From an uncultured Dehalococcoidia bacterium (GTDB lineage: Bacteria; Chloroflexota; Dehalococcoidia; Lucifugimonadales; UBA1123): a stretch of DNA of 64,000 bases. The notes beneath the pieces were generated by a model. It worked only from the letters and a program-made list of their open reading frames with translations, searched no databases and was not told where the DNA came from. Position numbers and translations under genes: made by a program. Location of the stretch: assembly GCA_958296105.1 (NCBI GenBank), contig OY282441.1, positions 310,001 through 374,000 on the forward strand, given 5' to 3'. Positions 27,013 through 39,039 of this stretch are shown in pieces; the stretch's first letter is position 1; the number at the start of each line of letters is the position of its first letter.

Positions 27013-27978
27013 TTACTTCTGGCAGAACTCCTTCACGGGCTGGTATGCACCAACGAAGCCAGCTAGGTCGAACTTTGCGCCACTCCAATCAAGAAAGCCT
27101 TCAACTGCGAAGTCGAGATGCTGGTGATCGTGGAGTTTGTCTATGAACTCCCTGACATGGCGGCGGGTTCTACTATACCGAGGGGTAACGTAATCCCCTT
27201 CTCCATCCCACTTATCGAATTCAGTTGGCTCTGAATCCCAATCTAGGTGAACGTTTATGTCGTCCATGCTAGACACATACGCATAGCGTTCCCACCTTAT
27301 GCTCACACTCAGGTACTTACCTGAACGGTCAGAGTCAAAGCAGGATACTTTAAGGCTAACGTCTCCTTCTTCACCGAATGTCTCATAGGCTTCCAAAATG
27401 ATGGAACGACTCGACAGACTTTCACCATCAATGCTGAACGGCCACCACTCACCAGTGAAACTGTAATCAGGAGTAGCAGTTGGTTCTGGCGTGGCTGTTG
27501 GCACCGGCGTAGCAGTTGGTTCTGGCGTGGCTGTTGGAATGGCTGTCGGACTTGGCGTAGCAGTTGGCACCGGCGTAGCAGTTGGTTCTGGCGTGGCTGT
27601 TGGCACCGGCGTAGCAGTTGGTTCTGGCGTGGCTGTTGGAATGGCTGTCGGACTTGGCGTAGCAGTTGGCACCGGAGTAGCCGTTGGTTCTGGCGTGGCT
27701 GTTGGCACCGGAGTAGCCGTTGGTTCTGGCGTGGCTGTTGGAGTGGCTGTTGGAATGGCTGTCGGACTTGGCGTAGCCGTTGGTTCTGGCGTGACCGTTG
27801 GGATGGCTGTCGGCACGAGTGTCACCGTCGGCTCAAGTGTTGAGCTTGAAACGACAATCGGACTAGGTGTTGAAACCGGAACAGGCCCCTCCCCACAACT
27901 TGCCGTAAGCGCAAGTACTCCAATTGCGACGGTTAGTATTCCGACCTTGACCTTCGCGCTTATCTTCTTCATGTCCAT
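27013..27978 (-). CDS. Lipoprotein with long Thr-Pro repeat stalk
   Basis: A 321-residue secreted lipoprotein. The signal peptide ends in a lipobox LTASC (Cys28). Residues 30-180 are a low-complexity stalk of about 12-residue repeats ([12 protein letters not shown]), encoded by near-identical 36-bp DNA units at 27480-27790. Residues 185-321 form a compact acidic and aromatic domain ([25 protein letters not shown]-type segments) of unknown family. A surface-exposed, extended anchor is likely. ATG 27978 is chosen because AAAGGAG lies 8 nt upstream. It follows the carbamoyltransferase-like gene by 27 bp on the same strand. Confidence 0.8.
27475..27795 (-). repeat. 36-bp coding tandem repeats (Thr-Pro stalk)
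   Basis: Units such as GTAGCAGTTGGTTCTGGCGT and GTAGCAGTTGGCACCGGCGT alternate with few substitutions, encoding the TPEPTA and TPVPTA stalk. Near identity suggests recent expansion or gene conversion, and copy number may vary between strains. Confidence 0.85.
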
Positions 27979-28005
27979 GATTCCCACTCCTTTGTGGTGG
28001 TTGAT

Positions 28006-28953: not shown

Positions 28954-29098
28954 TCGCGGACTCCATATATTACACGTGAAGGGTAGAAGGGCAGTGGGAC
29001 TGCGCCAGCGAAATTGTACAGCCCGCCCCGTCCCATAGCCAGTTCAGCGCCCACGCAGGCGCGCCCCGCGCCGTCCGTGAATCTCTGGCTGCCCAGCA

Positions 29099-29107
29099 TG
29101 TTATAAT
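29099..29107 (+). promoter_or_regulatory. Extended -10 element before the AAA/DUF3226 pair
   Basis: TGTTATAAT: a perfect TATAAT at 29102-29107 preceded by TGT. No clear -35 is visible, as expected for extended -10 promoters. The element lies 53 bp before the ATG of the ATPase gene. Confidence 0.5.
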
Positions 29108-29160
29108 TGTCGTTGCGGAGAAAGATCGCTCCGCCGTGCCGACGATGATGAGGATAACGC

Positions 29161-30255
29161 ATGATAACCGAGCTGAGCATATCCAACTTCAGACACATAG
29201 AGCAGTTCACCATAGCCCCGCTTGGACGAATCACGCTGATCGGCGGCAAGAACGGCGCGGGAAAGACCGCCCTGCTCGAAGCGCTGTGGCTGTTCACAGC
29301 CCCGAACCGGCCCAGAATGACTGTGGTGCTGGACGACTTTCGAGGCATAGCGCCAAGACCGGAAGCGGATTTCTTGCCGAGCGTGTTTCGGAGCTTCGAC
29401 GAGCGAAAACCCGTAGTCATTTCCGCCAGGCGATCTCCGCACAGTGCGCCCTGCATTCTCAGGATCGAGGCAGTCGAAGGCGAATTTACAACTCTCCCCC
29501 TCGCCCCCACAGGCGTTTCGGGCTTTGCCGAAACCGCCGACCGCTTGCAGATTGTCAGCACGTACACGGATGAAGACGGCGGCGAATACGTATCCCGCGC
29601 TCGGAGGGTTCAGCAAACTCTCGACGCGGTTCTTCCCGGTTCCGGTCAGCTGGCTACTATAGGAATACGCGAGGACCATGCCCAGATACCTCATAGACCC
29701 TCTGCGATGATCATGCCGTCCAGATATCGAGAATCGAGTGAATCCGTCTCAGAGGGCTTCGGAAAACTTCAGCGTGTGGGAAAAGAAGACCGTGTCACCC
29801 GCCTCCTAGAACATCTGGAGCCGTCTCTGAAATCCCTGTCCGTCATATCTTCCGGCGGCTCGCCGACTATCCACGCCTACATCGGCGACAGCCTGCCCAT
29901 ACCCGCCAGCCTCGTCGGAGAGGGCTTTGTCCGCATGTTGGAGTTGGCGACGGGCGTAGCCGCTGCTGAAGGCGGCCTTCTGCTGGTGGACGAGATCGAA
30001 AACGGCTTGCACTACTCTACCCACGAAGCCATCTTCTCCACCCTGTTCGAGTTTGCAAAGGAGTTCGACGTTCAGGTCGTAGCCACCACCCACAGCAGCG
30101 AGTGCGTCAAGGCGGCGCACAGAGCCTTGGGAGACAGGGGCGAGGACACGTTCACCTACCACAGAATAGACCGCGACGGGGACGATCTGCGCCTTGCCCA
30201 CTTCGACAGCGAGATGATGGACACCGCCATAGACTTGGGAATGGAGATCAGGTAG
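29161..30255 (+). CDS. AAA ATPase of an OLD/PARIS-like pair (AAA_15/AAA_21 type)
   Basis: A 364-residue SMC/RecF-like ABC ATPase. The N-terminus MITELSISNFRHIEQF leads to Walker A G29-K-N-G-A-G-K-T36. LVGEGFVRMLEL is the helical signature region, Walker B is LLLVDEIENGL with D277/E278, and ATTHSSECVKA provides the switch histidine. This is the ATPase architecture of OLD-family nucleases and of AriA in the PARIS defence system, but the TOPRIM nuclease part is absent here and encoded by the next gene. GAGGA lies 8 nt before ATG. The stop TAG at 30253-30255 directly abuts the ATG of the partner gene. Confidence 0.85.
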   Translation: MITELSISNFRHIEQFTIAPLGRITLIGGKNGAGKTALLEALWLFTAPNRPRMTVVLDDFRGIAPRPEADFLPSVFRSFDERKPVVISARRSPHSAPCILRIEAVEGEFTTLPLAPTGVSGFAETADRLQIVSTYTDEDGGEYVSRARRVQQTLDAVLPGSGQLATIGIREDHAQIPHRPSAMIMPSRYRESSESVSEGFGKLQRVGKEDRVTRLLEHLEPSLKSLSVISSGGSPTIHAYIGDSLPIPASLVGEGFVRMLELATGVAAAEGGLLLVDEIENGLHYSTHEAIFSTLFEFAKEFDVQVVATTHSSECVKAAHRALGDRGEDTFTYHRIDRDGDDLRLAHFDSEMMDTAIDLGMEIR

Positions 30256-30891
30256 ATGGCGAACCCAGCAAATACTGGCCAAGACTGGTCTATCGACTCT
30301 CCGAAGCTGCTTCTGGTCGAAGGCGTTGATGAAGTGCGCGTGTTCGGCGCCTTGGCAAAGACTCTTGGCATCGAGGATATCCAGATTGAATCCTACAACG
30401 GTCGAGACAACCTCAGAGGAGCTCTCAAAGCCCTCCCGCAGATCGCCGGTTACCGCACGTTGAAATCAGTCGGCATAGTAACGGACGCGGACCAAAGCGC
30501 GTCGGACGCCGCAAGGCGAGTTCGAGGCGCTCTTGCCGCCGCATCGCTTCCCGTTCCCGACGCTCCTCTTGATAGAGCCTGCGATGGTAACATGCTCGTC
30601 TGCTATCTCATCCTCCCCCACGATTCCGACTCGGGCGCATTGGAAGACGTCTGCTTGAAGTCCGTCGCCACTGACCCCGTGATGAGCTGCGTTGACGACT
30701 TCTTCGACTGCATAGCGCGCGCGCCATCGGGCGGGCCGAACCCCGTATGGATGTCCAAAGCCAGAGTCCACGCATATCTGGCATCTAGGAAGCGCCCCGA
30801 CCGTCGCTTGGGAGAAGCGGCGGATCGCGGCGTCTGGCAGTTCGACGCGCCCGCCTTCGCTCCATTGAAGAGCCTTCTTCGCATGATGTGA
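30256..30891 (+). CDS. DUF3226 TOPRIM-like protein, partner of the AAA ATPase
   Basis: A 211-residue protein with TOPRIM hallmarks: LLLVEGVDEVRVF (E22-G-x-D25) and VGIVTDADQS with D77 and D79, which would bind the catalytic metals. The segment LILPHDSDSGALEDVCLKSV matches the DUF3226 family. TOPRIM domains nick or cut nucleic acid in OLD, topoisomerase and primase proteins. Together with the abutting AAA protein this makes a split OLD-like, PARIS-like module. The ATG at 30256 starts immediately after the previous stop, so translation is coupled. Activity and target are unknown; a role in anti-phage defence or in DNA repair is inferred from the architecture. Confidence 0.8.
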   Translation: MANPANTGQDWSIDSPKLLLVEGVDEVRVFGALAKTLGIEDIQIESYNGRDNLRGALKALPQIAGYRTLKSVGIVTDADQSASDAARRVRGALAAASLPVPDAPLDRACDGNMLVCYLILPHDSDSGALEDVCLKSVATDPVMSCVDDFFDCIARAPSGGPNPVWMSKARVHAYLASRKRPDRRLGEAADRGVWQFDAPAFAPLKSLLRMM

Positions 30892-30913
30892 AACACCCCG
30901 CCGCGAGGCGAAT

Positions 30914-34760: not shown

Positions 34761-39039
<4,279 letters not shown>

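Follow-up and report, generated by a model that had tools for sequence, protein, structure and literature searches.

The window analysed here, a 64-kb stretch of DNA corresponding to positions 310001-374000 of a 3.18-Mb single-contig genome, carries two adjacent genes that encode an OLD-type ATPase and a DUF3226 protein, located in a segment that is absent at the same site in related genomes. Coordinates, strand and the nature of each feature are as follows.

28954..30908 (no strand): inserted segment (net length about 1.88 kb) that relatives G001, G002, G003, G005 and G007 lack at this site
29099..29107 (+): extended -10 element TGTTATAAT, putative promoter of the pair, found by a motif scan of the window
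29161..30255 (+): OLD-type ABC ATPase (AAA_15/21; PDC-M38A-like), 364 aa, from ORF, Pfam, PADLOC and model
29245..29268 (+): Walker A of the ATPase, residues 29-36
29989..29994 (+): Walker B of the ATPase, D277 and E278
30256..30891 (+): predicted DUF3226 TOPRIM nuclease (PDC-M38B-like), 211 aa, from ORF, Pfam, PADLOC and model
30319..30321 (+): E22 of DUF3226, first TOPRIM glutamate (E400 of Bp OLD; PMC6755086)
30484..30492 (+): D77-A-D79 of DUF3226, DxD motif (D455/D457 of Bp OLD; PMC6755086)
30643..30645 (+): E130 of DUF3226, start of the first helical-domain helix (E508 of Bp OLD; PMC6755086)
30757..30759 (+): K168 of DUF3226, C-terminal helix (K562 of Bp OLD; PMC6755086)
30914..30943 (+): promoter-like site of the downstream FmdB/dtd genes, outside the cassette, in the shared flank

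Both ORFs lie where the preliminary description of this DNA had placed them, and the TAG stop codon of the ATPase gene is followed directly by the ATG of the DUF3226 gene, on the same strand and with a 0-nt gap. In Pfam, the first protein matches AAA_15 (3e-21) and AAA_21 (1e-19) above the curated cut-offs, while DUF3226 (1.1e-29) is the sole family above cut-off for the second. The Walker A motif at residues 29-36 and the Walker B pair D277/E278 had been correctly read from the sequence, and G29, N31, G34, K35, D277, E278, Q305 and H311 of the ATPase are invariant in 49 relatives.

The pair had also been credited with an extended -10 of its own and a separate downstream promoter. The extended -10 element occurs a single time in the 64 kb (0.34 occurrences expected) and ends 53 bp before the ATPase start codon. 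The downstream site, a 10-of-12 promoter match with TG, lies within DNA common to the pair-less relative G002 and is therefore native to the FmdB gene, that is, to the old arrangement of the locus.

Comparison with five relatives, which belong to the genus or at least the family of the source organism, demonstrated that the pair in the window is a clean insertion of about 1.9 kb. The distance from the carbamoyltransferase-like gene to dtd is 2375 bp here vs approximately 500-540 bp in the five relatives, in which the ATPase gene is absent from this interval. The left border can be fixed only to within about 76 bp; on the right, homology with G002 restarts at 30909, 18 bases past the DUF3226 stop codon. 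The net insert comprises the two genes together with their promoter region. The GC content of the insert is 0.59 vs 0.63 in the flanks. No integrase or transposase was found within it, and no usable or clear target-site duplication or terminal repeat was found at its borders. Elsewhere in the window, the first 1.37 kb or so of secA are present as a tandem duplicate (34761-36134 and 36332-37705, 95% identical), the upstream copy being a truncated SecA that runs into a TPT-rich tail and the downstream copy being full length, and positions 27013-27987 encode a putative lipoprotein with long repeats and no Pfam match.

AlphaFold2 models of the single chains were built on 49-sequence alignments. 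The ATPase model (pLDDT 90) matched PtuA, AriA and GajA with Z values of about 18, and the heads of SMC and Rad50 scored equally high; as these heads dominate the fold search, the fold alone does not single out OLD. By sequence profile, PtuA and OLD proteins rank first. The DUF3226 model (pLDDT 93.6) had as its top match PH0156, an uncharacterised archaeal protein (Z 12.7), for which no paper was found in the literature searched. Next come class 2 OLD proteins, matched in their C-terminal regions (Z 10.1-10.9 over 158-163 residues), and Ts OLD of Thermus (Z 10.0), and AriB of PARIS (Z 7.4) falls below these OLD matches. Foldseek returned Xcc OLD as the best match (E 5.5e-5), and the family profile recovered PH0156 by sequence (4e-6) and AriB weakly (E 0.04). 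The comparison with AriA/AriB and OLD that had been proposed earlier thus recovered OLD and AriA, with AriB weaker. On the basis of these models, DUF3226 is predicted to adopt a TOPRIM nuclease fold which, among defence proteins, is closest to the class 2 OLD nucleases.

The predicted active site points in the same direction. In Bp OLD it includes E400, E404, D455, D457, T506, E508 and K562 (PMC6755086), and residues E22, E26, D77, D79, E130 and K168 of DUF3226 match E400/E404/D455/D457/E508/K562 (PMC6755086) when aligned by order, motif and secondary structure rather than by superposed coordinates. E22 and D77 are present in 49/49 relatives, E130 in 48/49 and K168 in 47/49, while an aspartate or glutamate occupies position 26 in 42/49 (E26 here) and position 79 in 47/49. 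E130 begins the first helix beyond the TOPRIM core, whereas K168 is located in a later one. No conserved residue matches T506 of OLD, position 128 of DUF3226 being variable and an alanine here. The claim that the EGxD and DxD motifs are intact therefore stands for the invariant E22 and D77, with the correction that the second conserved acidic residue in EGxxD/E is E26 and not D25.

The proposal of a split OLD-like system is well supported by this fold match (Z 10.1-10.9) and by the retention of the metal ligands and the lysine (PMC6755086). With class 2 OLD and GajA the pair shares an OLD-type ABC ATPase, a TOPRIM with a helical domain and the E/E/D/D/E/K positions (PMC6755086). It differs from class 2 OLD and Gabija in that two ORFs are found here where one chain is found there, in that the metal-B residue T506 is not conserved, and in that the genes downstream are an FmdB-type zinc ribbon and dtd rather than a UvrD-like helicase. 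Having two chains and no helicase, the pair is not class 2 OLD or Gabija by membership, yet it would appear to work most like a split OLD. The TOPRIM-linked OLD-ABC dyads described in BREX and other conflict loci (PMC12839542) have the same general architecture, and one relative of the pair (L101) is itself within a BREX locus.

The likeness to PARIS, also proposed in the preliminary description, holds for the layout only, namely separate adjacent ATPase and TOPRIM genes with an OLD-type (AAA_15/AAA_21) ATPase first. The effector of PARIS is a DUF4435 protein, whereas here it is DUF3226; AriB is longer and its fold match weaker. Since PARIS is detected, under the published rule, by a DUF4435 effector (PMC9122126) and DUF3226 alone is above cut-off, membership of PARIS was rejected. 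A tRNA-cleaving abortive defence of the PARIS type, which would be a sub-case of the defence reading favoured below with another substrate, is nevertheless conceivable given the two-gene layout, the OLD-type ATPase and the AriB matches by profile and fold; the better fit of the class 2 OLD DNA nucleases (Z 10-11) and the lack of DUF4435 make it the less likely variant. Septu (PtuAB) was likewise rejected, as its partner is an HNH nuclease and here it is DUF3226. A full-length match of the ATPase to the AbiLi model of PADLOC (1.1e-43) was also obtained, whereas the partner matches PDC-M38B, and no AbiL effector model was found among the PADLOC matches.

Both proteins are already modelled in PADLOC-DB as PDC-M38A and PDC-M38B, and calling the pair a distinct defence module was consequently too strong. 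The ATPase matches PDC-M38A at 3.6e-48, and the window DUF3226 matches PDC-M38B at 6.8e-12 and 1e-8, a modest similarity in comparison with the second copy in the genome (3.5e-49), which is the clearer match. With both components matching and the genes adjacent (0-nt gap), the module is, to judge from its profile matches, a member of the existing candidate system PDC-M38, from which the window copy differs by this modest B similarity and by standing alone among housekeeping genes. Neither DUF3226 nor PDC-M38 is named in the papers searched, a scope that leaves out preprints and most subscription papers.

A genome scan by ATPase motifs alone yielded 80 loci, in 72 of which the ATPase matched at E < 1e-40. 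DUF3226 directly follows the ATPase in 64/72 of these loci, which corresponds to 64/67 with testable downstream DNA: of the eight remaining loci, five stop at or near a contig edge, while L051, L079 and L081 are true orphans. The pairing is far above chance, and its hosts comprise Chloroflexi, Cyanobacteria, Bacteroidota, Pseudomonadota, Planctomycetota, Spirochaetota, Bacillota and one archaeon. Distances in the two protein trees are correlated (r 0.72, against a maximum of 0.16 in 2000 permutations), a value to which shared ancestry contributes. Fusion of both proteins in one ORF was found in none of the scanned loci; the long DUF3226 ORF of L006 was considered as a fusion and rejected, being an upstream start-codon extension. 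The source genome carries three divergent copies, every one paired, and its two other ATPases are about 35% identical to that of the window.

Several variants were observed alongside. The three orphans and the viral loci L177-L180 belong to the ATPase clade but have no adjoining DUF3226 match, and in L051 the next gene on the strand encodes a Fic-like protein. A Magnetococcales locus (L065, 6312-9680) holds two ATPase-DUF3226 pairs in direct tandem. In a long variant (L101, 8855-11877; also L100, L104 and L110, and the viral L184, L187 and L190-L193), the ATPase reaches about 590-750 aa through an N-terminal extension, and the DUF3226-like partner has 285-296 aa; L101 has this variant inside the BREX locus and a DpdF-like helicase downstream of it.

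The pair is a mobile cassette, borne by prophages and by tiny plasmids. By tblastn, DUF3226 relatives were found in about 140 plasmid records, mostly Klebsiella plasmids of 4.1-4.2 kb. One of these (L036, NZ_CP024435.1), a ColRNAI plasmid of 4167 bp, has four annotated genes, which encode an HTH protein, Rop, the ATPase and DUF3226; a relative in E. coli (NZ_CP093231.1, 4693 bp, with the pair at 781-2528) is similar, plus one more small gene. The 4167-bp Klebsiella plasmid is common, and the same region appears to be integrated in larger plasmids (L037 and L200). The ATPase was matched at E < 1e-40 in 29 viral contigs, 22 of which have DUF3226 beside it. A lambdoid prophage (L168) has the pair flanked by lambda O/P/Ren-like genes on one side and NinB/HNH/RusA genes on the other, and in a P2-like prophage it lies between gpA and the portal gene, an interval known as a P2 hotspot, in which P2 has old and tin, and in which further defence systems have been reported (PMC9122126). 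A viral scan based on DUF3226 gave no matches, which is a matter of sensitivity, as the later scan by ATPase gave these 22 pairs; tblastn of two queries against phage records gave none either.

This carriage bears on whether the pair could be a toxin-antitoxin module, or one for plasmid addiction or plasmid competition, that maintains itself and does not protect its host. The pair is the sole annotated cargo on the 4.2-kb ColE1-type plasmid and the solved AriA entries are titled 'AriA antitoxin', as would suit such a module; defence agrees better with the copies in prophages, of which one occupies the old/tin slot of P2, and with those standing alone on chromosomes. In PARIS, moreover, deletion of either gene is non-toxic (PMC9122126), so that a similar layout need not be toxin-antitoxin, and we regard this explanation as improbable.

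The genomic neighbourhood gave a mixed picture. The window copy is surrounded by housekeeping genes, and the surroundings of the two other copies in the genome look alike by eye; L101 is situated within a BREX locus and L072 adjoins a type I restriction gene. For each of 30 loci, two flanking genes per side were searched for PADLOC families at 1e-15, and the control, drawn from one phylum only, consisted of 120 genes in arbitrary regions of four genomes. PADLOC families numbered 159 near the pair vs 13 in the control, many of the 159 being overlapping models of a few BREX or restriction proteins, and housekeeping Pfam families dominate both sets. The association with defence loci is real but limited, and the enrichment is partial, not proven. 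Defence-island surroundings, which the preliminary description had put forward as a check, were accordingly seen in some relatives, as BREX and type I restriction neighbours and as prophage defence slots, and not at this locus.

Housekeeping neighbours would also be expected of a cellular enzyme of genome maintenance or of the cell cycle, acting as an ATP-gated TOPRIM nickase in DNA processing. There is a precedent in the archaeal OLD protein Cran1, an OLD-family ATPase-nuclease which has a role in the cell cycle and not in defence, without antiviral effect (PMC12796447), and OLD-like architecture alone is hence no proof of defence. Cran1, in contrast to the pair, is described as conserved across Sulfolobales. 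DUF3226 is patchy, being present in 4/60 relatives and in 28/400 genomes of the phylum, genus-mates lack the pair at the same site, and prophages and 4-kb plasmids carry it, all of which renders a maintenance role very improbable.

The reading that we favour, with a probability of roughly 78%, is that the pair is a self-contained, horizontally moving anti-phage cassette of the split OLD type. We infer a complex of the two proteins in which the ABC ATPase most likely serves as a nucleotide-bound scaffold and sensor that keeps the TOPRIM nuclease (DUF3226) inactive. A phage product would act as the cue by which the nuclease is released or activated; it would then cut nucleic acid by a two-metal mechanism, and the infection would be stopped, probably at the expense of the cell that is infected. 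As regards the substrate, DNA nicking is somewhat likelier than cleavage of tRNA, since OLD is closer in fold than AriB.

The analysis ties DUF3226, an unnamed domain, to the OLD nuclease fold, with an active site that can be tested, and the small ColE1-type plasmid (4.2 kb, with a near relative in E. coli), which carries the pair as its main annotated cargo, is a ready object for such tests. Whether the pair amounts to a further widespread class of OLD, split and of the class 2 type, which as a stand-alone exchangeable cassette replaces old/tin in P2-like prophages and enters lambdoid prophages and minimal plasmids, is a proposal to which we give even odds. If active, it would represent a further common layout of OLD-type immunity beside single-chain OLD/Gabija and PARIS.
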